Source: Methanomassiliicoccaceae archaeon UBA367
Lineage (GTDB): Archaea; Thermoplasmatota; Thermoplasmata; Methanomassiliicoccales; Methanomethylophilaceae
Assembly (NCBI GenBank): GCA_002506255.1
Contig: DAXF01000010.1
Span: forward strand, 17,387 to 36,878
Length of the DNA: 19,492 nucleotides
Reading direction: 5' to 3'
The translations under genes were made by a program, and so were the position numbers. This document shows positions 5,544-18,989 of this stretch, one piece after another; positions within the stretch are counted from its first letter, which is position 1; each line of letters opens with the position of its first letter. Below the pieces are notes generated by a model that was not told where the DNA came from, did not search any database, and saw only the letters and a program-made list of their open reading frames with translations.

Positions 5544-6113
5544 TCAGCTCTTCTTAGTTCCCAGCGGCAGGATCTCCTTTCCGTGCACTTCGTTGAGCAC
5601 TTCTCCGATCCCGGCGTAGAGAGCCGAAAGGGCGAGGAGTATTCCGAAGACGGATATGATTCTCGTGAGTATCTCTTCGACACCGATGGCGTTGTTAAGT
5701 GCCAGCAGCAGGAAGACAATCGTCAGCAGAGCGAACACGACACGGATCACTATAGGGGACTTCAGAGTTCCTATGAACATAAGGCCGGTGAAAAGCCCCC
5801 ATCCGAACATATAGGCTGCAAGGGCCGCCGTGTCTGGTGCAGTCATTAACCCCGTCAAAGGCAGCATCTCCATGAGGCAGAATGATATCCAGAATGCCCC
5901 GTAGGATAGGAATGCCACAGTTCCGAAGGTATTCCCGCGTCTCCACTCCATTGCGCCAGCCACAATCTGCATCATGCCTCCGTAGGCCAGACCCATGGCT
6001 ATTATCATCGAGTTCATGCCGTAGAGGCCCGTGTTATGGACCATCAGGCAGAATGTCGTCAGTGCGAACGCGATCAGACCGAGCGCGCCGCCGTTGCCTA
6101 ACTTCTCAGTTAT
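5544..6113 (-). CDS. Acetate uptake transporter (GPR1/FUN34/YaaH, SatP family), non-AUG start
   Basis: A six-helix inner-membrane protein of the AceTr family, which imports acetate or succinate with protons. YGGMMQIVAGAMEWRRGNTFG, SYGAFW and FIGTLK match family landmarks in order. The first in-frame ATG (6044) falls inside the first helix and would remove the segment KLGNGGALGLIAFALTTFCL, which aligns with the SatP N-terminus, so the true start must be upstream. The in-frame stop before it is TGA at 6119-6117. Between the two, the only start-like codon is ATA at 6113, eight bases after a strong AGGAGG. From there the protein is 189 aa, against 188 for SatP. The NPxPLGL motif is degenerate (NGGALGL). 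A one-base indel after the ATG at 6120 is the alternative explanation. Acetate supply would fit the acetyl-CoA genes further right. Confidence 0.82.
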   Translation of the reverse strand: MTEKLGNGGALGLIAFALTTFCLMVHNTGLYGMNSMIIAMGLAYGGMMQIVAGAMEWRRGNTFGTVAFLSYGAFWISFCLMEMLPLTGLMTAPDTAALAAYMFGWGLFTGLMFIGTLKSPIVIRVVFALLTIVFLLLALNNAIGVEEILTRIISVFGILLALSALYAGIGEVLNEVHGKEILPLGTKKS

Positions 6114-6431: not shown

Positions 6432-7805
6432 ATGAATATTCCTGAGGATGCGGCCACGGAAGAGGATCGCATGTACGAGGGCGCGCTCAATGCGGTCTTC
6501 AACATAGAGAAGAAAGATTACCCCAGCTACATAGGCGGCCTCAAGGTTGCCTCCGGCAAATCTTTCGATGTCGTCAGTCCCATAGATCGGACCATAGTCT
6601 TCGGGAGATTCCAGGAACCGGAGGAAGGGCTGGTCGATAAGGCTGTGGAGGTTGCGGCGAAAGCCTACGTTTCGTGGTCTGAGACGAGTCCTGCCGAGAG
6701 GGCGGGGTATATTGAGACAGCCAGTGATTTCATCAGGAAGCAGAGGTACAGACTGGCAGGCATACTTACATTGAACGCAGGCATGACCAGGAAGGATTCC
6801 CTGGAAGAGGTGGATCGTCTTATAGAGATAATCGAGGACACGTGTGCCTTCGTCCGTGAAGGCGAATGCGATGATCCTACAGGCGTTTGGGGAGTGATAA
6901 CTTCATACAATTCGCCTCTTGCGGCTCCCATGGGATTCGCGATATCAGCGATGTTGAAAGGCAATACTGTGGTTCTGACGCCTTCGGGGTTGGTTCCTAT
7001 GCCTGTTTACTCCTTGTACAGCATACTTGAGACCGCGCATCTGCCGGAAGGGGTGCTGAATCTCATAACGGATAAGGACGGTGCATCGGCGAAAGCTCTT
7101 GCAGAGAACACGGAGCTGGCAGGCATAGCGTTCTCCGGATCGGGGGTACTGGCTGAGGATATGATGTTCACGCAGATGAACGTGGACTTGGACTTCATCA
7201 ACGAGACCAAGGGAATGAATCCTATATTCGTGTACAAGCCAGCTCATATGAAGGAGGCGGCCAAGCTCGTTGTGGATTCCGCTTTCACATATTCAGGGCA
7301 GAGAACGGATTCCACATCCAAAGTAGTGGTCACAGCGGACGAGGCCGATGCATTCCAGAGGGCTCTTCTCACAGAGCTGAGGAACATCAAGGTCGGGGAC
7401 CCGACTGACCGGGAGAGCACGATGGGCCCAGTGATATCCGAGAAGGATATGGAAAGGTTGCTTTGTGCAGCGGAATCCTACAGGGACAATCTGATCTTCG
7501 GAGGCAAGAGGCTTAGGGGGGAGTTCCTGGATAACGGCTATTTCGTATCCCCGGCGGTGTTCGTGGGGCTTCCGGAGGAGCACGACCTGAACAACATGGA
7601 TAATTCCCTTCCCATACTGTCGATACAAGTGGCACAAGATCTGGAGGATGCGGTGGAGTTAATAAACTCCTCGGAATTCGGTGCATCGGCAGGTATAATC
7701 ACCAAGGAAAGCTCAGCGGCGGAATTCTTCCTGGGCAACGTGCTAGCAGAGGAAGTTTTCATAAACGACTCAAGCAGAGTTGTGGGTCCTGCGCCAAAGG
7801 TCTGA
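6432..7805 (+). CDS. Aldehyde-dehydrogenase-like protein lacking the catalytic cysteine (P5C dehydrogenase-like)
   Basis: 457 residues of ALDH fold, most like 1-pyrroline-5-carboxylate dehydrogenases of the RocA type in the N-terminal third (YPSYIGGLKVASGKSFDVVSP). Key residues are mixed. Asn160 (SYNSPL, replacing PWNFPL) and Glu258 (INETKGMNP) are kept. The cofactor-binding Lys of KPxxxxP is Thr183 (LTPSGLVPMP), and the nucleophile of GQxC is Thr292 (SGQRTDST). The C-terminus stops at VVGPAPKV, about 30-40 residues short of normal, without the PFGGxKxSG segment. No frameshift into a continuing frame was found. Classical aldehyde oxidation is therefore unlikely; a binding or regulatory role or a different chemistry is possible. 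The reading frame is intact and tightly promoted, which argues against a dead gene. Confidence 0.85.
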   Translation: MNIPEDAATEEDRMYEGALNAVFNIEKKDYPSYIGGLKVASGKSFDVVSPIDRTIVFGRFQEPEEGLVDKAVEVAAKAYVSWSETSPAERAGYIETASDFIRKQRYRLAGILTLNAGMTRKDSLEEVDRLIEIIEDTCAFVREGECDDPTGVWGVITSYNSPLAAPMGFAISAMLKGNTVVLTPSGLVPMPVYSLYSILETAHLPEGVLNLITDKDGASAKALAENTELAGIAFSGSGVLAEDMMFTQMNVDLDFINETKGMNPIFVYKPAHMKEAAKLVVDSAFTYSGQRTDSTSKVVVTADEADAFQRALLTELRNIKVGDPTDRESTMGPVISEKDMERLLCAAESYRDNLIFGGKRLRGEFLDNGYFVSPAVFVGLPEEHDLNNMDNSLPILSIQVAQDLEDAVELINSSEFGASAGIITKESSAAEFFLGNVLAEEVFINDSSRVVGPAPKV

Positions 7806-7815
7806 TGGGAAGGTC

Positions 7816-8514
7816 TCAGATCCCTCTTATCCGGACGTCCTTGACGTATGCTTTGGCCTTCTCGGCCATATCCATCAGCACAGACTCGGGATAGGGGTCC
7901 AGAACGGTCAGATTCTCATCCAGGCAGTTCTTTGGACGGAATTGGTGAAGTCTGTATCTCTTGGCGCCGCGGATCTCCTTGAATATATCCTCCATCCCCT
8001 CGGGTTTGATGAGGACCGGCACAACGGTGGTCCTGAATTCGTAGTCCACTCCCGAATCCATGATTATCCGGATGCTCTTCCTGATATCAGAGACGTCCAC
8101 CGGGACATCTGTTACGGAAGAGTATCTCCCGTCCAACGGGGCTTTTATGTCCATTGCGATGAAATCCACCATTCCCGCGCCTATAAGGTCGTCAAGAACG
8201 TCCGGCATGGTCCCGTTGGTATCGATCTTTATATCCATGCCTAATTTTCTGAGCTTCTTGATTAGGTCCGGCAGGTCTTTGTTCAATGTGGGCTCTCCGC
8301 CGGATATGACGACGCCATCTAGGAAATCAGAGTTCCTCTTGATATATTCCATTATGCCGTCCAATGGGATGTCCTCTGCTTCCCCCGGATTCAGCACAAG
8401 GTCCCGGTTGTGGCAATAAGGGCATCTGAAGTTGCATCCGGCCAGATAGATCGTGCACGCCACCTTCCCGTCCCAATCAAGCAGGGTGGTCTTCAGGAAG
8501 CCCGATATCTTCAT
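7816..8514 (-). CDS. Radical SAM activating enzyme, anaerobic NTP-reductase-activase (NrdG) like
   Basis: 232 residues. The radical SAM cluster motif CNFRCPYC supplies Cys27, Cys31 and Cys34 (CX3CX2C), and ISGGEPTL (70-77) is the SAM-contacting GGEP motif. The N-terminal FLKTTLLDWDGKVACTIYLAG matches archaeal proteins annotated as anaerobic ribonucleoside-triphosphate reductase activases, which generate a glycyl radical on a partner. No NrdD or other glycyl-radical enzyme lies in the window, so the client is unknown. Its ATG at 8514 is 26 bases from the TATA-like GATATAAC (8537-8544), suggesting a leaderless message. It is divergent from the corrinoid activator gene and converges with the ALDH-like gene 10 bases away. 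Confidence 0.88.
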   Translation of the reverse strand: MKISGFLKTTLLDWDGKVACTIYLAGCNFRCPYCHNRDLVLNPGEAEDIPLDGIMEYIKRNSDFLDGVVISGGEPTLNKDLPDLIKKLRKLGMDIKIDTNGTMPDVLDDLIGAGMVDFIAMDIKAPLDGRYSSVTDVPVDVSDIRKSIRIIMDSGVDYEFRTTVVPVLIKPEGMEDIFKEIRGAKRYRLHQFRPKNCLDENLTVLDPYPESVLMDMAEKAKAYVKDVRIRGI

Positions 8515-8591: not shown

Positions 8592-10106
8592 ATGACCGTT
8601 CGCGTTAGATTTCTCAGTGAGGGCAGGACCGTGGAAGTGGAGCCCGGAACCACCATAGCACAGGCGGCTGCCGCTGCAGGGGTGAACATCAACCTGCCAT
8701 GCGGGGGCCAGGGGAGATGCGGCAAATGCTCCGTGACCGTCGGCAGGGACATCAAGAAAAGAGTTCTCGCCTGCCAGACCCGGGTCGAAGGGGACACCGA
8801 TGTCACGACCCAGAATGTGGAGGAGAGGAACAAGGTCGTGGGAGTTACGGACCATAGGAGGGTCCCGATCAGCGACAAGACCCCCGTTGCGAGCGGGCAT
8901 GGTCTCGCTATAGATATAGGCACCACCACAGTGGCGGTGGAAATCGTAGATATGGACAATCATCTGGCACTGTATCGTGCGACCGGTGTCAACAGGCAAA
9001 GGGACAGGGGAGAGGACGTTCTGGCGAGGATGCAGTATTCTGCAGACGGAGGAACTCAGGAACTCAGGGGCCTGGTGCTCAGCACGATAAACGATCTACT
9101 GCATACATTCACGGAAGGCACCCAAGAAATAAACGCGGTATGTGTGTCAGGCAACACAACCATGACGCATCTCTTTTTGGGCGTGGACCCCTCACCCATA
9201 AGGGAGCCGCCATACATGCCGCTATTCGTCAAGGCCGAGACCACAGGGAGGGGGAGCGGGCTGGACGTCAATCCTAACGCCGCAGTCTATACCATGCCGG
9301 CCATATCCTCGTATGTGGGGGGGGATATAGTGAGCGATATCATCGTGGCAGGAATGGATCTGGAAAAAGGGACCTCCATGCTCATTGACGTAGGCACGAA
9401 CGGGGAGATAGCCCTGGGCAACAGCGAGATGATGCTCGTCTGCTCTTCCTCGGCCGGTCCCGCATTCGAGGGGTCCAAGACAACATCCGGCATGCTGGCA
9501 CAGTTGGGAGCCATAGACGGTGTTAGGATAGAAGACGGCGTAATCAGATACACCGTGATAGGGGGAGGGAGGCCGAAGGGAATATGCGGCTCCGGGATAA
9601 TCGACCTGGTGGCACAGATGTTCTCTGCCGGCATGATCGACAGGCGCGGGAACCTGACGGAGAAGGCGAACGCCAAGGATGGTGTGTTCACAGTTGCTCC
9701 GGATGTCGTCATAACTCAGTCAGAGATAATGGATATTGTGCTCACCAAGGCTGCGATATACTCTGCGGCCAGGACATTGGTCAGGAGCGTGGGGATGGAG
9801 TTCGGGGATCTGGATAAGATATATGTTGCGGGCGGTTTCGGGAATTTCATCAATCTGGATTCAGCAATCACGATCGGTCTGTTCCCGGACGTGGACAGGT
9901 CCAAGTATGTCTATCTGGGCAATGCCTCTCTCGGAGGGGCGGTGAACTATCTGCTGTCCGAGAACGCAAGATCCAGGACCGACGACATATCATACAGCGC
10001 GACGTACCTGGATCTGAGCTCAGAGCACAAGTTCTATGACGAATACACCTCGGCGCAGTTCCTTCCGCACACGGACAGGGGGCAGTTCCCCTCGGTGCAT
10101 TTTTAA
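8592..10106 (+). CDS. Reductive activator of corrinoid proteins (RACo-like, 2Fe-2S plus ASKHA ATPase)
   Basis: 504 residues. The N-terminus is a plant-type [2Fe-2S] ferredoxin domain with Cys37, Cys43, Cys46 and Cys61 (LPCGGQGRCGKC, then LAC). After a linker comes an ASKHA ATPase with two phosphate loops, AIDIGTTTVAVEI (about 105-117) and LIDVGTNGEIALG, plus VAGGFGNFINLDSAITIGLFP. The tail FLPHTDRGQFPS is typical of COG3894. Such proteins use ATP to reduce inactive Co(II) corrinoid to Co(I); bacterial RACo does this for the CoFeSP. At 504 aa it is shorter than RACo of acetogens (about 630) and lacks the [4Fe-4S] arrangement of methanogen RamA. It is first in an operon with the methionine synthase and CooC-like genes and opposite the CoFeSP genes, which makes CoFeSP its likely client. 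Confidence 0.9.
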   Translation: MTVRVRFLSEGRTVEVEPGTTIAQAAAAAGVNINLPCGGQGRCGKCSVTVGRDIKKRVLACQTRVEGDTDVTTQNVEERNKVVGVTDHRRVPISDKTPVASGHGLAIDIGTTTVAVEIVDMDNHLALYRATGVNRQRDRGEDVLARMQYSADGGTQELRGLVLSTINDLLHTFTEGTQEINAVCVSGNTTMTHLFLGVDPSPIREPPYMPLFVKAETTGRGSGLDVNPNAAVYTMPAISSYVGGDIVSDIIVAGMDLEKGTSMLIDVGTNGEIALGNSEMMLVCSSSAGPAFEGSKTTSGMLAQLGAIDGVRIEDGVIRYTVIGGGRPKGICGSGIIDLVAQMFSAGMIDRRGNLTEKANAKDGVFTVAPDVVITQSEIMDIVLTKAAIYSAARTLVRSVGMEFGDLDKIYVAGGFGNFINLDSAITIGLFPDVDRSKYVYLGNASLGGAVNYLLSENARSRTDDISYSATYLDLSSEHKFYDEYTSAQFLPHTDRGQFPSVHF

Positions 10107-10127
10107 TCAGGATAGGGAGTCTATGTC

Positions 10128-11138
10128 ATGATGGAATGGAAGTTCGCTACCACGCTGATAGGGTCGATGCCCTTCTCGGAGCCCGAGGATGCGCTGAAGA
10201 AGATATTGGACGGGAGGGTCGAGTGCCCTTCCTGGCCGCAGCTGTCCAGAGGTATGAAGGAGAGCATGTATGTGCAGACCGGGGCGCATCTTCCCGGGCT
10301 CAGGGTAAATGAGGACAAGGTCTTCGTGGACCTGAATGATTATGATCCCACAGAGGTGTATGAGGCCATAATATCTGAGGATGAGGATTTCTTCAAGCCG
10401 CCGGAGAGATGCCATGCAGGACTATACGGTCTTTTGAAGAATGATGTTTCCAGATTCAGAGCGGTCAAAGGGCAGGTCACCGGGCCAATAAGCGAGGGGC
10501 TGCAGATACAGGATATCAACGGACGTTCCGTGATATACGACGAGATGTACGGTGAGATAGTCAGGAAATCAGTCTGTATGACTGCAAGGTGGCAGGCGCG
10601 CAGGCTCATGAAGGCGAACGATTGTGTCATAATGTTCTTCGATGAGCCCTCTCTGTCCCTGTTGGGATCGCCATTCGCTCAGATAAACGAGAATGATGCG
10701 GTAGATTGGTTGAATGAGGCCATGGAGGGAGTGGAAGGATTCCGCGCCGTCCACTGCTGCGGTAACACTGATTGGGGCATGGTGCTTAGGACCAAATTGG
10801 ACATACTGAGCTTTGATGCATACAATTACGCGGGCAACCTGGCTCTTTACACAGATGACCTGAAGGCGTTCATGGATAGGGGAGGGGCGCTGTCCTGGGG
10901 GATAGTTCCCAACAGGGAAGAGGACCTGGAGAAGGAAACGGTTAGGAGCCTTTGTGCGAAACTGGAGAAAGCGATGGACAAGCTCCAGAGCAAAGGCCTT
11001 GATAAGCGGCAGATAGCCAGAAGGTCTCTGCTCACCCCTCAGTGCGGCCTCGAGGGGCTGTCCCGGGAGTCGGTGGATAAAGTGCTGGAACTTCTCAGCG
11101 GCGTGTCCAGGGAGATGAAGGGGAGGTACGGTTTTTGA
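10128..11138 (+). CDS. Core (folate-independent) methionine synthase, MetE C-terminal-domain type
   Basis: 336 residues of UROD/MetE-like TIM barrel without the N-terminal folate-binding half of MetE. The zinc/homocysteine site is present: VHCCGN gives His209 and Cys211 (HxC), and LTPQCGL gives Cys306. FDEP (171-174) and QVTGP (116-120) match other MetE barrel motifs. Core synthases of this kind take methyl groups from corrinoid proteins. The families MesB and MesC occur in anaerobes with the Wood-Ljungdahl pathway and are predicted to use CoFeSP. The location between the corrinoid activator and CoFeSP genes supports that; I cannot separate MesB from MesC by eye. The start is ATG 10128 or the adjacent ATG 10131, eight or more bases after GGGAG. 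Its stop overlaps the next start (TTGA). Another corrinoid methyltransferase role is the alternative. Confidence 0.8.
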   Translation: MMEWKFATTLIGSMPFSEPEDALKKILDGRVECPSWPQLSRGMKESMYVQTGAHLPGLRVNEDKVFVDLNDYDPTEVYEAIISEDEDFFKPPERCHAGLYGLLKNDVSRFRAVKGQVTGPISEGLQIQDINGRSVIYDEMYGEIVRKSVCMTARWQARRLMKANDCVIMFFDEPSLSLLGSPFAQINENDAVDWLNEAMEGVEGFRAVHCCGNTDWGMVLRTKLDILSFDAYNYAGNLALYTDDLKAFMDRGGALSWGIVPNREEDLEKETVRSLCAKLEKAMDKLQSKGLDKRQIARRSLLTPQCGLEGLSRESVDKVLELLSGVSREMKGRYGF

Positions 11139-11875
11139 TAATCGCACTGGCGGGAAAGGGTGGGGTTGGGAAGAGCACGATATCGTCTCAGCTGATCAGA
11201 CTGCTCTCCCGTGACGGGGTGGTTCTTGCGGTGGATGCGGACCCTAATTCCAATCTCTGCGATAAGCTGGGAATGGAGGTTTTGGGCTCAGTCGGTGAGC
11301 TAAGGAACGATATAGTCGATGATCCAGATATAGTTCCGGCGGGGATAAGCAAGCAGGAATACGTGGCCAATCATGTCCGTCAGATAATATCCGAGGAGGG
11401 GAACGTGGACCTCCTTGTTATGGGCCGGCCCCAGGGCCAGGGGTGCTACTGCTTCGTGAACGGTGTCATGAAAGAATGCTTAGCCAATCTGATACCCGCT
11501 TACGGGAATGTAGTGATAGATAACGAAGCCGGGATGGAGCATCTTTCCCGGAAGACCCTTCCAAAAGCTGATGCGATAATTTTCGTATCGGACCCCACGA
11601 AAACCGGGATCAAGACAGCTTCGAGATTGTCAGGTATAGTGGATGAGGTGAGCATAGATGCCGGGCGCAGGGTCCTGGTGATAAACAATGTCAATGGGAA
11701 TGCGGAAAATCTCATCCGATACGCTGGAGAATTGGGTTTTGAAGAGGTTTTCGTACTGCCTCATGATGAATTCATATCCCAATCCGCAATGGAGAGCGAG
11801 GCTCTCGATGTTCCAGCCGATACCGAGTTCGGGAAGGCCCTTTCCGGCTTGGTGAAGGTCCTCACTGGGAAGTGA
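11135..11875 (+). CDS. cooC: CooC/AcsF-type nickel-inserting ATPase
   Basis: 246 residues of the MinD/SIMIBI class. A deviant Walker A, GKGGVGKST (7-15), is followed by VDADPNSN. The CxC pair in QGQGCYCFVNG (Cys104, Cys106) corresponds to the metal-binding CxC of CooC, which dimerises around Ni or Zn. CooC loads nickel into CO dehydrogenase, and the related AcsF loads acetyl-CoA synthase. Since an ACS gene but no CODH gene is adjacent, an AcsF-like job is the better guess. The start is TTG at 11135, overlapping the stop of the methionine synthase gene, after a good GGGAGG. Its 3' end overlaps the convergent CoFeSP large-subunit gene by 14 bases. Confidence 0.88.
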   Translation: MIIALAGKGGVGKSTISSQLIRLLSRDGVVLAVDADPNSNLCDKLGMEVLGSVGELRNDIVDDPDIVPAGISKQEYVANHVRQIISEEGNVDLLVMGRPQGQGCYCFVNGVMKECLANLIPAYGNVVIDNEAGMEHLSRKTLPKADAIIFVSDPTKTGIKTASRLSGIVDEVSIDAGRRVLVINNVNGNAENLIRYAGELGFEEVFVLPHDEFISQSAMESEALDVPADTEFGKALSGLVKVLTGK

Positions 11876-13190
11876 GTTCCTTCAGATGCTTAGGTATCTG
11901 CTTTGATTCGTTGGTACCTACCAACACCTTTCTGCCGATCATCTCTTCCAGTCTGCCGGACATACGCGCAACCAATCCGGGCACTATTACCGGGCCGTCT
12001 GTCTTCGATAGGACGCCCGATTCCTCGAAGACCTCCGAGATCTTCTCCGGTTCGAATTTCCCGGCAGCGTATGCGGTCAGAACGGAAAGGCCCTCAGTGT
12101 TCACTATCTGCAGCCATACCGGTATCCTGCTCTTCTCTATGTCCGCCCTTACTGTGAAGTAAGTCAGGGAGAAATTGGTCGTGAACATTATAGGCGAATG
12201 CTCTCCCGGGTTCCCTATGGGATAAAGAGCCTGTTTGACCTGTATAGGAACCTGTGGGTCCGTGTATATGTTCTGCCTCAGAGTCATCAGGGGAAGGGCC
12301 TCGTAGCTTTCTAGATTATCGAATATCACGAGACTGCCGTATTTCATGGTAGAAACTGCCGCTATAGCCACGGCGTACTCCCCGCATCCGACCCTGTTCA
12401 TCAAAGGGTATCCCAAGGGCTTGAATTTCTTCTTCACCGCTGCACGTCTTGCTACTGTCTGATCCTCCAGGCACCTTTTAAGGCTGGAGCAACCAAGGTC
12501 CAGAACGAGGTCATCCGTGCCGGCGGCCTTCGCTCTTGCGGAGAGGTCCGCCGCCGATTCAAGGCTGTCAGCCCTTATCCCCAGGGGGCACCCGTGCTTC
12601 TTGGCCAGAGCCGCCATCTTCTCCACATTCCCGGCATCTGCCCCGTATATCAGGGGTCTCATCTTCCCTATCTCATCAAGAGCCCTCCCCATGGCCGTGA
12701 CATCATCGGATTCCAGGATCAGGGGTTTCTTCCACAAGGAGGATACAGCCTTCGCGGTCTCTGCGAATCTGGCCGGGTCCCCGCTCACGTTCTTGATCGA
12801 TATCATGTCTGCAGCGAAGATCATTCCGACGCGCTCGAAACTGAGGGAGGATATCGCATTTATCCTGTCGATAAGAGCTCCTCCTTCCAGGTCATCGCAT
12901 ACGGTCAGAGCGTAGGCCGTCTGATTGACGAAGCGGCGCTCGTGGCGATAAAGCACCGTCTCTCCGCCCATTTCCACTGCGGTCTCGCCCGTGCCCACAC
13001 TGACGGTGCGCATCGGAGGTGCGGCGGATTCGCTCAGAGCAGTCTTGGACTCCTCGCTGATATGTGGGCAGTCATCTATCTTCGCCTTCTGGTTGGCCAG
13101 GAGCATGGCGAAGGCAAGGCATGTGGGCTGACCGCAATCCTTGCAGTTCGTCTTCGGAAGGAGTTTGAAGAATTCTATGGCGGTAGCCAT
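11862..13190 (-). CDS. acsC: Corrinoid iron-sulfur protein large subunit (AcsC/CdhE, gamma)
   Basis: 442 residues from the ATG at 13190. An upstream in-frame extension exists but the conserved N-terminus begins here. Residues 12-41 hold the [4Fe-4S] motif with Cys16, Cys19, Cys24 and Cys41 (CX2CX4CX16C). A TIM barrel follows, and the last 100 or so residues form the corrinoid-binding domain. With the small subunit it carries the methyl group as methyl-Co(III) and passes it to acetyl-CoA synthase. The length is nearer bacterial AcsC (about 446) than typical archaeal CdhE (about 460-470). The start shares one base with the preceding stop (TGATG), so translation is coupled. Confidence 0.93.
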   Translation of the reverse strand: MATAIEFFKLLPKTNCKDCGQPTCLAFAMLLANQKAKIDDCPHISEESKTALSESAAPPMRTVSVGTGETAVEMGGETVLYRHERRFVNQTAYALTVCDDLEGGALIDRINAISSLSFERVGMIFAADMISIKNVSGDPARFAETAKAVSSLWKKPLILESDDVTAMGRALDEIGKMRPLIYGADAGNVEKMAALAKKHGCPLGIRADSLESAADLSARAKAAGTDDLVLDLGCSSLKRCLEDQTVARRAAVKKKFKPLGYPLMNRVGCGEYAVAIAAVSTMKYGSLVIFDNLESYEALPLMTLRQNIYTDPQVPIQVKQALYPIGNPGEHSPIMFTTNFSLTYFTVRADIEKSRIPVWLQIVNTEGLSVLTAYAAGKFEPEKISEVFEESGVLSKTDGPVIVPGLVARMSGRLEEMIGRKVLVGTNESKQIPKHLKELTSQ

Positions 13191-14113
13191 CAGGACACCC
13201 CCGTCAATTCTTCGGCGTATACTCTTGTCATATCCGCCGCGCCCGGCCCTCTTACGATGAGGATATCGGCTCCGGAGAGCATCGCGGCCAGAGCGGTCAT
13301 GGCTTCCCACCATGCGACCCTGTGTTTCGCATCCCCTAGTGACGGATCGTCAGTGCTCACGGCATCGGCTACATCCCAGGCTCCCGTGCAGTCGCACACC
13401 ATGGGTACCTGCAGCATCCTGTCTCCGGACAGGGCCGCGAGTCTTATCCTCTCATTCACAGAGTATGAGTAGTCCAGACCCATGCCCAAGGCGGCCATGA
13501 GAGGATCCATCGTTATGCTGTTCCTCTCTACGCCGAAATCTGTGAGAAGGATATTCATCTGCTTGGCGAGGTTTATGTCAAGATTGGAGAATGCAAGTAC
13601 GGCGTGCCCGTTGGACATGGATACGGCAGAGATCTTCTTGTATTCGTGTTCCTCTGTCCTTCCGAGTATCGCCTTGGTGCCTTTCATTGTGCCCCCGACG
13701 GCTTCCGCTATCCTGTTGTCTATGTCGGTGATGCCGCACCCAATGACCATGACAGGCAGACTTGTTTTGTCGGAGATCCTCTTCACGATTTCGGCGGCAT
13801 CCTCAGGAGAGGTACCCTTCTTGTCTGGTGCTGCACCCGGGAATCTGATGCAGATCATGTCCGCCCCGATCTCCTTCCACATATTGGCCCAGTCCACAGG
13901 GTCCTTCTGGCGGCCGTCGAACATCTCTGCAGCCATCTCGGGGTAGTCGGTGAGATCGTCGACCACCTCGCCTGCTATGATCGGGCGCTTCTTGAGAGTG
14001 TTCTCGAAGGAGAGGAACGGCATCCCGTCCGCACCTCCAGCAATGCAATTGCCGAATGCGATCTCCTCTATTTTACCTGTGTATTTCTCCTTTACTGATG
14101 GTATGTCTGCCAT
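13190..14113 (-). CDS. acsD: Corrinoid iron-sulfur protein small subunit (AcsD/CdhD, delta)
   Basis: 307 residues, a TIM barrel that pairs with the large CoFeSP subunit and helps cap the corrinoid. Family landmarks include an N-terminal IAFGNCIAGGADGMPFLSFE, RPIIAGEVVD, and an ITMDPLMAALGMGLDYSYSV segment in the C-terminal half. The size fits bacterial AcsD (about 310-323); archaeal CdhD proteins are commonly over 400 residues. The AGGTGAT ribosome site lies 4-10 bases before the ATG at 14113 and overlaps the upstream acsB stop codon. It sits between acsB and acsC in an unbroken operon. Confidence 0.93.
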   Translation of the reverse strand: MADIPSVKEKYTGKIEEIAFGNCIAGGADGMPFLSFENTLKKRPIIAGEVVDDLTDYPEMAAEMFDGRQKDPVDWANMWKEIGADMICIRFPGAAPDKKGTSPEDAAEIVKRISDKTSLPVMVIGCGITDIDNRIAEAVGGTMKGTKAILGRTEEHEYKKISAVSMSNGHAVLAFSNLDINLAKQMNILLTDFGVERNSITMDPLMAALGMGLDYSYSVNERIRLAALSGDRMLQVPMVCDCTGAWDVADAVSTDDPSLGDAKHRVAWWEAMTALAAMLSGADILIVRGPGAADMTRVYAEELTGVS

Positions 14114-14121
14114 TTAATCAC

Positions 14122-16335
14122 CTAAATGAGGGGCTCCATGCGGAGTGCGGGGTGGTCAACTTCCGTCATCCATGCAATCAGCCCCTCGGCGTTATCAGTT
14201 ATCGTCTCGTCCGCGATCTTGTCCATCAGATCGGGCATGCCCAAGTCACGGCATCTTTTACGGAGCTCCTCTCCCAACATATCCTTGAGCCGACGCGGCA
14301 TCCAGGAGATCCTGGGAAGTCCTCCTTCCGCTGCTATGAACTTATCGCTGATTATGTACTTCCTGCCCACACCCATGAATCCGGGGGTCTGCCTTCCGCC
14401 CCCTATGGACCCGGCCAGGGTCGAGAACTTCATGCCGACCGGCGTCATGCCCAGATAATCCCTGTCTACGAGGATAACTGACTGCATATCCACAGTCATT
14501 GCGATTATCACTTCGAAGCAGCCACAAGATGTCATGGGAGCGTCCATGAGGCTGTACAGGCACATCCTCGTGACAGTGCCGGATGATGCAGAGGAAACGG
14601 AATCGTTAACGCCTGCCCATTCACCTTTGATTCCATCCAGCAGATCGCCCATACTCACAGGCTTGTTGGGACCGGAAGGCGACAACTCGTTACCCGCCTT
14701 TGCATCCAGCCAGTTTATGGCACCGCATAGTCCCAGCCTCTCAGGGGATATTATGCATATGTGACCCGGGGCAAAGGACTGGCACATTGTACATGTATAG
14801 AAGCAGTCCACGAGCTCGTCCTTGAGTCCTTTCATTCTCTCGTCCCTAGCATCATAAATCTCTTTGGCAGCAGGGAGGCGGCACTCGATCTCTTCAAGAT
14901 CCGTGATTATCGTAACCTGAACACGGGTAACCACGCTGCCGAATTCCTTTCGGGTCGTGTGCATGAGCATTTTTCCCAGATGGGCAAGACGGAAGCCCTT
15001 CCCGACCGCCTTTTTACTAATCCTGACCCAGTCTGAATTCCTCTGCCCGGTGTGCCAGATGCCCTCTGCGAAGTTTATCCCGCTGTGGAATCTGCGTTCC
15101 ATGACAGACTCCAGGTCGCTCTGCATATCCTTACCGTAAACCTCGACTATCATTGCCAAAGGCATGACGGAGCCCTCCGGTATCTCATCCAGGTCCTTAC
15201 CTATCAAAAGTATCTTGCCGTCTTCGATCTCGTTCTCGTCTCTGGAGACAAGCAGTTCGAAGGCGGTGCTCCTGCTTCCCCCCGCTTCAAAGTAAGTATC
15301 GGGTTTTCTGAGAACCTCTCCTTCGAAGGAGGGTCCGTAGCCGACCGGCAGATCCAGAGGCTCAAGGGTGACGATTATCCCCCTCTCCTCGATCCCGACC
15401 TGGACCATTCTTCCCAGGTCATTGCTTTTCCTTATGGCCCCAGGCACGTCCGGCAGGTCAGAATCTGTCACTATCGGGGCGCTGTGCATAAGTGCCGCGA
15501 ACGCAAGAGCGGACTCCAATCTGTTAAGCTCCCCCGTCTTGATCACAAAGGCCTTGGGCCTCTTGGCCAGATATGCGGACAATCTCTCTCTGTCCCCGGG
15601 AGCGACGCCGCCGAAAGTCAGTGCGGCCCTCACATCGAAATTGAGCGCATGCACCACTCCTGCGAAGCCGCCCAGAGGATACATCATCCTGTCAAGTCCC
15701 ATGGCCACGTCATTATCTCTCATTCTCTCGGCGTATCCGAGGGATTGTGTTCCAGAAGTAACAAGGCCCAGCATGCCTTTTGACTGTATGTCCTTGGCCA
15801 TCAGTATTACGTTCTCGTTTCCCGTATCGCCCAAGAATACAGCAGCACCGGGGATCGTCTCATCCACCAGGCTGAGTCCCAGCTCCCTTATTACACGGTC
15901 GGGTATGAAGCCGTCCCTGTCAGCCTCCTCTGCGCCTATGTATGTTATTGCCTCGAGTATGTCCGCAGCGTACATGGCGCTCTCTCCGGCCGCAAGGCCG
16001 TCCTCCAGAGCAGATATCTTTGCGGAGCCGAGGGACTCCAGGAGTTCAAACGCTCCTTCCAGTGTCAGGCGATCCGTGCCCTTCCAGGCGCATACAGAGG
16101 GCACACCGTATCCTGTCTCAGGATATTCGAGAACTGTATTGCCCCCATGTCCTCTGATGGCTTCCATCACGGATTTCTTGGCTAAAGATACCAGGGCATC
16201 GGAACCTTCCGCTGCAAGTGCCAGCAATGAAGGCACGTCGTGCGCTCTGACGGCCTCCAGCAACAGCGGGATCTCTTCTGCGGAATCGATACCGTACTTC
16301 GAAGCGATCTTGCTGAATGCTGTCGGGTCCCTCAT
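14122..16335 (-). CDS. acsB: Acetyl-CoA synthase, full-length bacterial type (AcsB)
   Basis: 737 residues from the ATG at 16335; the frame continues upstream without conservation. It joins or splits a methyl group, CO and CoA. Four cysteines for the [4Fe-4S] cluster are Cys515, Cys518, Cys527 and Cys537 (CTMCQSFAPGHIC then LCG), and the proximal nickel site is Cys604-Gly-Cys606 (TSCGCFE). The spacing equals that of the Moorella enzyme (506, 509, 518, 528, 595, 597). A complete N-terminal domain of about 300 residues, used in bacteria to dock CODH and form the CO tunnel, is present. Ordinary archaeal CdhC (about 470 aa) lacks it. The ATG overlaps the stop of the ACT gene (ATGA), with GAGGA upstream. 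It ends in TAG, nine codons before TAA. No CODH gene is in the window. Confidence 0.95.
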   Translation of the reverse strand: MRDPTAFSKIASKYGIDSAEEIPLLLEAVRAHDVPSLLALAAEGSDALVSLAKKSVMEAIRGHGGNTVLEYPETGYGVPSVCAWKGTDRLTLEGAFELLESLGSAKISALEDGLAAGESAMYAADILEAITYIGAEEADRDGFIPDRVIRELGLSLVDETIPGAAVFLGDTGNENVILMAKDIQSKGMLGLVTSGTQSLGYAERMRDNDVAMGLDRMMYPLGGFAGVVHALNFDVRAALTFGGVAPGDRERLSAYLAKRPKAFVIKTGELNRLESALAFAALMHSAPIVTDSDLPDVPGAIRKSNDLGRMVQVGIEERGIIVTLEPLDLPVGYGPSFEGEVLRKPDTYFEAGGSRSTAFELLVSRDENEIEDGKILLIGKDLDEIPEGSVMPLAMIVEVYGKDMQSDLESVMERRFHSGINFAEGIWHTGQRNSDWVRISKKAVGKGFRLAHLGKMLMHTTRKEFGSVVTRVQVTIITDLEEIECRLPAAKEIYDARDERMKGLKDELVDCFYTCTMCQSFAPGHICIISPERLGLCGAINWLDAKAGNELSPSGPNKPVSMGDLLDGIKGEWAGVNDSVSSASSGTVTRMCLYSLMDAPMTSCGCFEVIIAMTVDMQSVILVDRDYLGMTPVGMKFSTLAGSIGGGRQTPGFMGVGRKYIISDKFIAAEGGLPRISWMPRRLKDMLGEELRKRCRDLGMPDLMDKIADETITDNAEGLIAWMTEVDHPALRMEPLI

Positions 16336-17237
16336 TTCAATTCCTCGTACTGGGTAAGAATGAATATCCCGTTCATGCCTTCCAGGGCATTCTCGAGTTT
16401 GATCCGGAATTCGTCCATCGGCATCTTGCAACCGCTGAAATCAGCCACAAGGTCCAAGGTCATCGTCTGATAGCATATCTTTATCTTGCTGAAAACAGAG
16501 ATGAGATTGACGTTTTTGGAAGCTATCCAATCCAGTACTTGGGTTATGGATCCCGGGCAGTCAGGGATCTCCAGACCTATCTTAACCAGCTTTGTCTCTC
16601 CTTTGAAGAAAGAGATGGAAATGATCCAGGAAGCGTAGTCTGCCACTATCATCACGGACTCGCCCTCGAAGTCCTCGAACACATCACCGTATTCTACCGA
16701 GAGGTCGTAGACGTTGTCCTTCAGAGTTATGGGAACGCCTCTTCTTATCTCGATCTTGTCGGAGCGCCCTTCGGTCCTGAAGACGCGGCCTATATCAGCT
16801 GGTTTAATCTGTATATGATCTATCTTGGAAACAGAGGGGTCGTTCTTCTCCTTAAGTTCGGCGAACTTCTCTGCCAGGATATTGACCTCTCCCGCGAAGT
16901 TAAGGTCCACGAGCATCTTCCAGATGATGATGGTATCGGATATGCCCTCCAAGGATATGGAGTTCAGTATGTTGATGTCCCTGTCTCCCAGGAATCTGGC
17001 CGCTTGAGCGCTGGAGCCCGGCACGTCCTGGATGTACATCGTTATATTGGTAAGGGTCCGGTAGTTCTCTTGGGGATAGGTAGACAGGATGAGCTCGTAT
17101 TTCTTCGGGCTTTCGTTGTCGTACTCAAAAAGAGTGCTGTAGATGTACCCGCCGTCCACGAGCCCCATCATATCCGCCAGGGTCTTTTCGATCCTTACAG
17201 TCTTATCTTTTACCTTGTCGAACTCCCAGTTCTTCAT
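16332..17237 (-). CDS. Double ACT-domain protein coupled to acsB
   Basis: 301 residues from the ATG at 17237, preferred because GGAG lies six bases upstream and the TATA-like CATATATCC (17271-17279) would start the RNA near 17249. An earlier GTG (17255) would fall before that. ACT-like segments occur at about 64-112 (IQDVPGSSAQAARFLGDRDI onward) and 220-269 (EIPDCPGSITQVLDWIASKN onward); the middle is not recognised. ACT domains usually bind amino acids or small metabolites and signal to an enzyme or regulator. No enzyme domain or clear DNA-binding domain is visible. It is the first gene of the ACS/CoFeSP operon and its stop overlaps the acsB start, so it probably senses a product (methionine, SAM or an amino acid are guesses) and acts on the ACS system. 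Confidence 0.82.
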   Translation of the reverse strand: MKNWEFDKVKDKTVRIEKTLADMMGLVDGGYIYSTLFEYDNESPKKYELILSTYPQENYRTLTNITMYIQDVPGSSAQAARFLGDRDINILNSISLEGISDTIIIWKMLVDLNFAGEVNILAEKFAELKEKNDPSVSKIDHIQIKPADIGRVFRTEGRSDKIEIRRGVPITLKDNVYDLSVEYGDVFEDFEGESVMIVADYASWIISISFFKGETKLVKIGLEIPDCPGSITQVLDWIASKNVNLISVFSKIKICYQTMTLDLVADFSGCKMPMDEFRIKLENALEGMNGIFILTQYEELK

Positions 17238-17269: not shown

Positions 17270-17392
17270 TCATATATCCTTTCTGTCCTGACTCTTAACC
17301 GATACGAGAGGGCGCGTCCAACACGGATCGCCGTCGTCCTCGCGGTACGTTTTCTTCGGGATCTCCTTTTTGTTGTCTTCGTCCGGTGTCAT
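17270..17392 (-). CDS. Small ORF of 40 codons coupled to the zinc-ribbon gene
   Basis: The ATG at 17392 overlaps the TGA stop of the zinc-ribbon gene (ATGA), with GGAAGAG just upstream. The product is very polar (MTPDEDNKKEIPKKTYREDD at the N-terminus) and resembles no family I know. It ends at 17270, at the TATA-like box of the ACT gene. The coupling supports translation, but the length alone would allow chance. Confidence 0.35.
   Translation of the reverse strand: MTPDEDNKKEIPKKTYREDDGDPCWTRPLVSVKSQDRKDI
17271..17279 (-). promoter_or_regulatory. TATA-like box of the ACT-acsB-acsD-acsC operon
   Basis: CATATATCC read on the plus strand gives GGATATATG on the minus strand, centred about 38 bases before the ATG at 17237. 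That leaves a leader of about 12 bases containing GGAG. It is the only clear promoter element upstream of the operon, and the four genes are joined by overlaps or short gaps. Confidence 0.55.
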
Positions 17393-17787
17393 CTCTTCCG
17401 CCCCTTCGTGAATGTGTACTTGCCGGGCATGCGCATTTTGGTACCGACGGAATATGTGCATACAGAGCATTTCCTAAGGATCTCGGTTTCTCTGCCGTCC
17501 AAGGTCGTATTGCTTATGCCGATAAGGGGATTCCTGCAGACGGGGCAATCCTCCGGCAGGTCCCTGTTCTCCGCATCGTTGTAATCTATGGATACCTGCG
17601 AAAGCCCCCTGTTTATTGCCAGTCGCCTGATGCGCTCGCCACTGACGCGATAATCGCTGCCATCTTTGTTGATCTCCCTCAGCACGAGCTCTGTCATCTC
17701 TGATTGGGACCTGACCTGCTGGTTCCTGTACATGACGATGAAGATGGCCTCGGACAGCCGTTCGTCGCTGGGTATGCTGTAGGACAT
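17389..17787 (-). CDS. Small zinc-ribbon protein with helical N-terminal domain, function unknown
   Basis: 132 residues from the ATG at 17787 (a TTG one codon earlier is possible). Residues 8-65 form a mainly helical region with a helix-turn-helix feel (DYRVSGERIRRLAINRGL). CPVC (81-84) and CSVC (107-110) make a four-cysteine zinc ribbon, followed by a basic tail. The arrangement suggests a nucleic-acid-binding protein, perhaps an archaeal transcription-associated factor. A TATA-like GAATATATAC (17811-17820) is centred 29 bases upstream of the ATG, so the message is probably leaderless. It precedes the 40-codon ORF and the ACS operon but has its own promoter. Confidence 0.7.
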   Translation of the reverse strand: MSYSIPSDERLSEAIFIVMYRNQQVRSQSEMTELVLREINKDGSDYRVSGERIRRLAINRGLSQVSIDYNDAENRDLPEDCPVCRNPLIGISNTTLDGRETEILRKCSVCTYSVGTKMRMPGKYTFTKGRKR

Positions 17788-17873
17788 CAATGATAAAACA
17801 GCACTCCTGTGTATATATTCTTGGAGTAAGGCCTTAACAGCAGCATCAAAGTCTATGCTGTCCTGAGGAGTGG

Positions 17874-17999: not shown

Positions 18000-18989
18000 T
18001 TACCATATGCCGAGCAGATACTGCATACCCAAACTTGCCAAAGCTATGGATATCCAGCAGGCGAAACCCATAGCAAGAGGTTTCCCTCCGTTCTTGATCA
18101 GTTTTACCACATCTGTGTTGAAACCTATGGCTGTCATGGCGATTATTATCAGGAATTTGCTGAGGACCTTGAATGGCGAGAAAGCGTCTGGAGAGACGCC
18201 AAACATGCCAGTGCAAATGGTGGTTATGATCGATGCGAGCACGAAGAAGGCTATGAAAATCGGGAACATCTTCTTGAGGCTTACTCTGTTGCTGGAACGG
18301 TCGGAATCGCTCTTGGCGTAGATGTAGGCAAGGATCAGTGTGATCGGGATAATGGCCAAAGTCCTGGTGAGCTTTACTATGGTCGCCTGGTCGAGTACAG
18401 TCGTCCCGGTACCGTGAATATCATCCCATGAGGAAGCAGCGGCCGTGACCGAAGAAGTATCGTTTATCGCGGTTCCGGCGAAGAGAGCGAAGCCCTGATC
18501 AGAGAGGCCCAAAATGATTCCTATGGTCGGGAAGGTCAATGCCGCTATCACATTAAACAGGAATATCACGGAGATCGATCTAGCTATGTCCTCATCACTG
18601 GCCTGTATGGCCGGAGCAGCGGCGGCTATTGCGGACCCGCCGCATATGGCAGAGCCCACTCCTACCAGGGCGGAGGTCTTTTTGGGAATCCCCAGCAGCC
18701 TGTGCATTGCATATGCCACGGCCAATGCGACGGATATGGTCACGATGATAATAGGTAGGGACAATGCGCCCACTCTGGCGATTAGTGCCAAGTCCAATCC
18801 GAAACCGAGGAAGACGACCGCTGCCTGCAGGACGGTCTTTGAACAGAATGAGGTACCTCCGCGTGTGGCTTCACGGCTCTTCATGAAGAATCCCAAAAGC
18901 ATGCCCAGAAGTATTCCGAAGACCGGCCCTCCCACAACAGGGATCGCAGAGCCGAGGAACCAGCAGGGGATCGCTACGGCGATGCACAA
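18000..18989 (-). CDS. YeiH/YadS family putative sulfate exporter, N-terminus disturbed
   Basis: 329 residues from TTG at 18989 with about ten hydrophobic helices. The family signatures GGPVFGILLGMLLGF, LGFGLDL and VGVGSAICGGSAIAA are clear. Members are called sulfate exporters, though substrates are little tested. Conservation starts before the TTG: the same frame upstream reads RKRLKDLVPGIAL, the expected N-terminus, and is open back to an in-frame TAG at 19043-19041 with no ATG, GTG or TTG. An ATG at 19056 is in another frame (MREDIASGIF) and would join this frame with a +1 shift near the AAGGAAAAGG tract. So there may be a one-base insertion, a sequencing error or an unusual start. The rest of the gene is intact. 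Confidence 0.82.
   Translation of the reverse strand: MCIAVAIPCWFLGSAIPVVGGPVFGILLGMLLGFFMKSREATRGGTSFCSKTVLQAAVVFLGFGLDLALIARVGALSLPIIIVTISVALAVAYAMHRLLGIPKKTSALVGVGSAICGGSAIAAAAPAIQASDEDIARSISVIFLFNVIAALTFPTIGIILGLSDQGFALFAGTAINDTSSVTAAASSWDDIHGTGTTVLDQATIVKLTRTLAIIPITLILAYIYAKSDSDRSSNRVSLKKMFPIFIAFFVLASIITTICTGMFGVSPDAFSPFKVLSKFLIIIAMTAIGFNTDVVKLIKNGGKPLAMGFACWISIALASLGMQYLLGIW

Follow-up and report, generated by a model that had tools for sequence, protein, structure and literature searches.

We suggest that seven genes in a 19.5-kb stretch of a Methanomassiliicoccales contig (Methanomassiliicoccaceae archaeon UBA367; this whole stretch is the window below, and coordinates are window positions) probably form the hub of a bacterial-type, tetrahydrofolate (THF)-linked Wood-Ljungdahl pathway in an archaeon, with the methylated corrinoid iron-sulfur protein (methyl-CoFeSP) at its center. 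In this island, acsV, mesB and acsF on the forward strand face act2, acsB, acsD and acsC on the reverse strand; they encode a corrinoid activator, a folate-independent methionine synthase, a presumed nickel insertase, a double-ACT protein, acetyl-CoA synthase (ACS) and both CoFeSP subunits (Table 1). A preliminary description of this DNA took the lack of genes for carbon monoxide dehydrogenase (CODH), methylenetetrahydrofolate reductase (MTHFR) and the CoFeSP methyltransferase AcsE for a sign of an incomplete pathway, in which acetyl-CoA would be cleaved and its methyl group used for methionine. This does not agree with the sister genome RumEn M2, which has CODH and encodes Fhs, MTHFR and AcsE away from the island. 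The window's own genome presumably resembles its sisters, the earlier conclusion of incompleteness resulted mainly from the window's edges, and the window copy appears for the most part to follow an established design.

All seven genes are intact in the two facing operons described earlier. Within each run, neighboring genes overlap or lie no more than 21 bp apart, and the convergent ends of acsF and acsC overlap as well. Starts refined from the sequence are ATG for all four reverse-strand genes, at the upper coordinate of each, with an ATGA overlap at the act2/acsB junction; acsF starts with TTG, overlapping the mesB stop. Both CoFeSP subunits, AcsC and AcsD, score over their NCBIfam cut-offs, and the gene content supports the earlier statement that CoFeSP stands beside a folate-independent synthase in an archaeal host. 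The acsV product reaches 431 bits against the NCBIfam AcsV model, below its cut-off of 800 bits, and the NCBIfam matches of acsF are all below cut-off. The reported absences hold too: CODH, AcsE and MetF queries had no match in the window (E<=1e-3), with the AcsE query recovering its counterpart in locus L192 as a positive control.

MesB is a single catalytic domain of 336 aa with no folate-binding N-terminal half and zero Pfam matches at 1e-3; a search of solved structures gave one chance match only. Its zinc ligands are H209, C211, D230 and C306, and their 2/19/76 spacing equals that of MesB from Dehalococcoides mccartyi (ligands 214/216/235/311) and differs from those of MesA (2/22/61) and MesC (2/19/89; PMC7857596). 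The homocysteine-site residues Ser and Asp are also kept, as S13 and D172. ACS scores 680 bits against the Moorella thermoacetica enzyme (1oao/3i04). On a 738-residue translation, one residue more than from the ATG, it keeps six A-cluster cysteines, C516, C519, C528, C538, C605 and C607, which we take to correspond to C506, C509, C518, C528, C595 and C597 in M. thermoacetica numbering. All six are present in 71 of 73 ACS sequences, the exceptions being L149 (one position) and the broken L160. The two phenylalanines that form the CO-holding alcove of Moorella ACS, Phe229 and Phe512 (PMC11321310), are retained as F242 and F522. As a separate observation, acsB lies in broken pieces in L160 (G020; ~1.6-kb gap) and L153 (G014), possibly through decay or assembly error.

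A scan of genome contigs for ACS gave five loci, L001 to L005, from genomes G001 (UBA381), G002 (AS10tlH2TH_373, hereafter AS10), G003 (RumEn M2), G004 (Nt197P4bin30) and G005 (Thermoplasmata MAG RS_9_17), respectively. The window is 89.7% identical to RumEn M2 DNA over 15,408 bp, and in an ACS tree of 70 sequences (three short ones of the 73, from G032, G055 and G139, were left out) it is sister to RumEn M2 with a support of 0.993, followed by UBA381 and then AS10. The genes from acsV to acsB are syntenic in L001 to L003 at 84–96% amino-acid identity, and across the island and its neighbors nrdG2, aldh and satP the identity is 75–98% in the three named genomes. Facing acsB-acsD-acsC and acsF-mesB-acsV runs recur in most ACS loci examined in the order. 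Conservation of this layout and of the neighbors in relatives shows that the island is no chance arrangement. L005 has the same facing layout, but there acsB is immediately preceded by a CODH gene and act2 was not matched.

In RumEn M2, both CODH (TIGR01702, 641 bits) and AcsE (PRK07535, 289 bits) score over cut-off, and AcsE reaches 246 bits against the M. thermoacetica methyltransferase MeTr (2e7f). UBA381 and AS10 also have MTHFR and Fhs; AcsE was found by family search in UBA381 and by a count of PF00809 matches only in AS10. MTHFR is thus present in three of the three closest genomes, and AcsE is confirmed in two, with the third resting on a proxy. In UBA381 the MTHFR-AcsE cluster shares a contig with the island, ~34 kb away, and the distance is similar in RumEn M2; a window of 19.5 kb is too short to cover it. 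With AcsE and MTHFR in RumEn M2, methyl-THF can supply methyl-CoFeSP, and acetyl-CoA is not required as its source.

In the pathway that we propose, the activator RACo, the acsV product, would keep the cobalt of CoFeSP reduced, AcsF would load nickel into ACS, and AcsE, encoded elsewhere, would methylate CoFeSP from methyl-THF. Methyl-CoFeSP would then have two exits: one to homocysteine, by a putative transfer from CoFeSP to MesB, and one to ACS, where the methyl group would exchange reversibly with acetyl-CoA in a flux of presumed direction. CODH would be an optional, separate cassette, linking CO2 and CO to ACS when present; without it, ACS would have to take up or release free CO, and might on balance cleave acetyl-CoA. 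An amino acid may be sensed by the double-ACT protein, whose gene is coupled to acsB.

The cassette nature of CODH is seen directly in the closest relatives. Conserved genes of RumEn M2 flank a ~3.3-kb cooC-cooS cassette (L161, 7.8–11.1 kb). The same flanks are found without it, on one contig, in UBA381 and AS10 (L212 and L213), with 151 bp and 36 bp, respectively, between the aligned flanks. No CODH was found in either genome, their sole PF03063 matches being hybrid-cluster proteins. Further to that, genome G137, essentially one contig of 1,818,080 bp, carries the ACS island with adjacent Fhs, FolD, MTHFR and AcsE, and matched the CODH model once, weakly (a 434-aa frame, 1.7e-8). As the cassette flanks are on one contig, the absence of CODH at this site cannot be explained by missing contigs in UBA381 and AS10, and hardly so in G137. 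These genomes keep ACS, CoFeSP and MesB, and CO2-based synthesis therefore cannot be what maintains ACS in them. For this reason we consider it quite unlikely that the island is purely anabolic, with ACS and a CODH encoded elsewhere making acetyl-CoA from methyl-THF and CO2 and MesB being a side exit, even though RumEn M2 has CODH, Fhs, MTHFR and AcsE, the equivalents of the CO alcove residues Phe229/Phe512 are conserved in the window, and ACS/CODH is described for MALP, a member of the order (PMC6147122).

To place the island in a wider context, 147 genomes of the order of RumEn M2 were surveyed, one per species and with no completeness values given. ACS (PF19436) was found in 71 of them, MesB in 72 and both in 64. 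CODH was scored with TIGR01702, because PF03063 alone fails to separate it from hybrid-cluster protein; it is over cut-off in 49 genomes, and pieces of >200 bits below the cut-off in G057, G058 and G133 were counted as partial CODH. A TIGR01702 match at E<=0.001 occurs in 113 genomes overall, and the remaining weak matches were taken for hybrid-cluster proteins, an assignment that a family search confirmed for the three examined, those of G001 and G002 and a piece in G004. CODH, full or partial, accompanies ACS in 40 of the 71 ACS genomes and is found in none of the other 31. MTHFR occurs in 48 genomes, always alongside ACS or MesB, Fhs in 131 and a CoFeSP-family match in 96. An apparent CODH-ACS fusion in one frame of ~1,370 aa was seen in G006, G009, G010, G127, G128, G132, G134 and G136 (e.g. 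L095, L096, L100 and L121). Eight genomes, G036, G060, G063, G068, G071, G073, G074 and G076, have CODH over cut-off with neither ACS nor MesB found.

The survey also covered the textbook methionine synthases, as the preliminary description had proposed. The MetH/BHMT family PF02574 was matched in none of the 147 genomes and in 9 of 14 control genomes. No clear MetE was found either; marginal PF01717 (MetE-type) matches in 35 genomes, 16 of them over the 21-bit cut-off and the best at 28.1 bits, were provisionally taken for other proteins of that fold. Judged by these family searches, MesB appears to be the only clear methionine synthase in the order. RumEn M2 has the CODH and methyl branch that were expected to speak against an acetyl-CoA-to-methionine route, without the ordinary methionine synthase that had been named alongside them.

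Since FolP also matches PF00809 (at least one match in 141 of 147 genomes), two or more matches were used as the proxy for AcsE. The second, weaker match is visible individually for eight genomes and the others rest on the count; G041, G057 (apparently pieces of one gene) and G046 were left out despite two matches. Checked by family search in G001, G003 and G137, the proxy was confirmed as AcsE in all three by PRK07535 scores over cut-off. Among the 38 genomes with ACS, MesB and CODH, 30 have MTHFR and the AcsE proxy, six have neither and two the proxy only. The 26 with ACS and MesB and without CODH divide into 14 with both (including G001, G002 and G137), 11 with neither and one, G145, with the proxy only.

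Some of these results weigh against a THF-linked hub. The 11 genomes with ACS and MesB that are without CODH, MTHFR and AcsE proxy indicate that the island does not require the methyl branch in every relative, and CODH presence differs between close sisters. A second AcsE-type model, NF040758, gives 174–181 bits, under its cut-off of 370 bits. AcsE, MTHFR and CODH of the window's organism are read from its relatives, and the literature available to us, in the parts it covers, gave no biochemical work on the archaeal MesB or ACS described here.

A sister clade of six genomes, G114–G119, is of particular relevance here. All six have ACS, CoFeSP, MesB and Fhs, with no CODH, MTHFR or AcsE proxy found; all retain the alcove Phe pair of ACS and encode a homologue of ADP-forming acetyl-CoA synthetase (in G116 by a partial match). 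This would leave acetyl-CoA as the sole evident origin of methyl-CoFeSP in the clade (no search was aimed at supply by MtrH-type or methylotrophic proteins), and an acetyl-CoA-to-methionine route like that of Dehalococcoides is the best fit to its predicted gene set. That the window's organism itself lives in this way, with ACS cleaving acetyl-CoA, CO released, methyl-CoFeSP feeding MesB and no methyl branch, we regard as unlikely. The window shows none of CODH, AcsE and MTHFR and has an acetate transporter near the island, and of a selected set of 23 genomes, 21 (all but G053 and G054) have a homologue of ADP-forming acetyl-CoA synthetase, although only that of G137 is over the curated cut-off. 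However, RumEn M2, UBA381 and AS10 carry MTHFR, Fhs and AcsE or its proxy, the MTHFR-AcsE cluster of UBA381 lying beyond the reach of the window. The route proposed earlier is therefore not supported for the window's organism as far as its relatives show, and fits best in G114–G119 instead. In RumEn M2, the acetyl-CoA synthetase homologue is split by a frameshift or draft error.

What may be a further step of loss is seen in G121, G122, G123, G124 and G126 (L155–L159), where act2, a divergent ACS (36–37% identity), acsF and acsV are found in the same layout, and acsC, acsD and mesB are absent from the island in all five. None of these genomes is among the 96 with a CoFeSP match or the 72 with MesB, and no CODH or MTHFR was found in them. 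Their ACS keeps all six A-cluster cysteines, and the N-terminal Pfam domain is missing in the one tested; in the alcove, Tyr replaces Phe512 in five of five and Phe229 in four of five. The acsV products have diverged to 37–38% identity, acsF less so (57–60%). We tentatively propose, as a possibility that falls somewhat short of even chances, that a CODH-free ACS became an acetyl-CoA-cleaving methyl donor in this order. In G114–G119 it would serve methionine synthesis, with CO as waste and possibly an ACT sensor on ACS; in the five G121-type genomes CoFeSP and MesB would have been lost and the CO pocket changed from Phe to Tyr, so that another methyl donor or chemistry would be needed.

RACo-type activators also serve the corrinoid proteins of methanol and methylamine metabolism, and such proteins could in principle pass methyl groups to CoFeSP for acetyl-CoA or methionine. 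Against TIGR04270, the model for methylamine activase, the window acsV product scores 137 bits, far under the cut-off of 500 bits. Methanol and methylamines serve as substrates for members of the order, and mtrA and mtrH are reported in its environmental clade (PMC10804542). No linking methyltransferase was recognized in the window (neither this nor MtrH was searched genome-wide), and AcsE, present in relatives, suffices as a source of methyl-CoFeSP. We consider a methylotrophic supply very improbable, and return to methyl-THF as the likely donor to the hub.

The act2 gene adjoins acsB in the window's close relatives, and in many of the order's other ACS loci it stands slightly upstream. The AlphaFold model of its product (34 sequences; pLDDT 83.6, pTM 0.76) has fold matches that are mostly ACT proteins, among them regulatory domains of aspartate kinase and a putative repressor of glycine cleavage, along with some elongation factors; among the best 50 the whole-chain TM-score is no higher than 0.26 on the query, and a search of solved structures gave no match. 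That an amino acid controls ACS by feedback through this protein is our guess. In RumEn M2, act2 (L003, 9068–9989) is in two pieces in different frames, pointing to a frameshift or a draft error. ACS open frames of 957–1,036 aa were noted in L143, L133, L149 and others (G013, G108–G113 and G140–G148), with roughly 250–300 extra residues before ACS that contain no Pfam domain in the one tested. A fusion of ACT2 to ACS, suggested by these frames of ~1,000 aa, was rejected, as act2 ends before the ACS frame in L143.

Next to the island, satP is in the same place in L001–L003 only. The aldehyde dehydrogenase and NrdG2-like neighbors recur across the wider clade of the window, the CoFeSP-less clade included.

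Table 1. Genes of the island and its neighbors in the 19.5-kb window
Feature	Position	Strand	Evidence
acsV / RACo, reductive activator of corrinoid (CoFeSP)	8592..10106	+	Pfam RACo_C_ter 282 bits, Raco_middle 159 bits, N-terminal 2Fe-2S domain
mesB, folate-independent (core) methionine synthase	10128..11138	+	Zn-ligand spacing; NCBIfam methionine synthase 31.6 bits (below 258-bit cut-off)
acsF / CooC-like P-loop ATPase, presumed ACS nickel insertase	11135..11875	+	CbiA and AAA_31 P-loop domains; role from position
acsC, large (gamma) CoFeSP subunit	11862..13190	-	NCBIfam PRK04165 538.6 bits, over cut-off; N-terminal FeS domain
acsD, small (delta) CoFeSP subunit	13190..14113	-	NCBIfam PRK04452.1-2 301 bits, over cut-off
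acsB, acetyl-CoA synthase, bacterial type with N-terminal domain	14122..16335	-	NCBIfam NF040764 829 bits, over cut-off
act2, double-ACT protein, presumed amino-acid sensor	16332..17237	-	NCBIfam PRK08577 58.6 bits (below 140-bit cut-off)
nrdG2-like radical SAM activase, conserved acsV neighbor	7816..8514	-	TIGR02495 205 bits, over cut-off; synteny
Aldehyde dehydrogenase family protein, conserved neighbor	6432..7805	+	Aldedh 263.6 bits; synteny
satP-like acetate uptake transporter near island	5544..6044	-	NCBIfam AceTr_1 175.5 bits, over cut-off
Small conserved Cys-rich protein upstream of act2	17389..17790	-	No Pfam match; position conserved
PF03601-family (yeiH-like) membrane protein	18000-18989		Common to RumEn M2; no match in UBA381 and AS10 loci

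Parts of this picture have been anticipated. Price et al. (2021; PMC7857596) report that Methanomassiliicoccales have MesB only, tied to the Wood-Ljungdahl pathway, and already predicted that it is fed by CoFeSP; the window protein resembles their MesB in zinc-ligand spacing, which places it in the family, and in its linkage to acsC and acsD. The available text of that work treats the pathway as present, and does not discuss CODH-less genomes, a CoFeSP-less clade or the double-ACT gene. Among the literature matches listed, in a collection that covers few subscription papers, no CODH-less or CoFeSP-less ACS was described in the order. A tetrahydrofolate methyl branch is known there (PMC10804542).

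In D. mccartyi, ACS cleaves acetyl-CoA and CO leaves the cell, and the passage of the methyl group from CoFeSP to core-MetE is given as speculation (Deobald 2020, PMC7005905). ACS, CoFeSP and a core methionine synthase are common to both systems. D. mccartyi is without MTHFR and AcsE, whereas the window's sisters have both (AcsE once by proxy), which makes G114–G119 the closer archaeal parallel. The THF-type pathway of acetogens such as Moorella is similar in its ACS and in the AcsE of RumEn M2, as their scores against 1oao and 2e7f indicate; unlike in acetogens, CODH is not part of the cluster and varies among close relatives, and the cluster incorporates MesB and a double-ACT protein. Methanimicrococcus and Methanolapillus, likewise gut methanogens, have lost the CODH subunits CdhA and CdhB and need acetate, but they keep MtrA-H and Mer of the tetrahydromethanopterin pathway, unlike here, and Methanolapillus is also without the ACS subunit CdhC (PMC11362671).

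The island makes methionine synthesis in methanogens without the textbook methionine synthases directly testable. At the same time, the order apparently shows a stepwise dismantling of the Wood-Ljungdahl pathway, in which CODH, the methyl branch, and then CoFeSP and MesB are lost and ACS stays. With ACS retained through these losses, the purpose of ACS without CODH can be tested with a handful of genes, and the pattern of loss predicts which archaea need acetate, emit CO, or need methionine.

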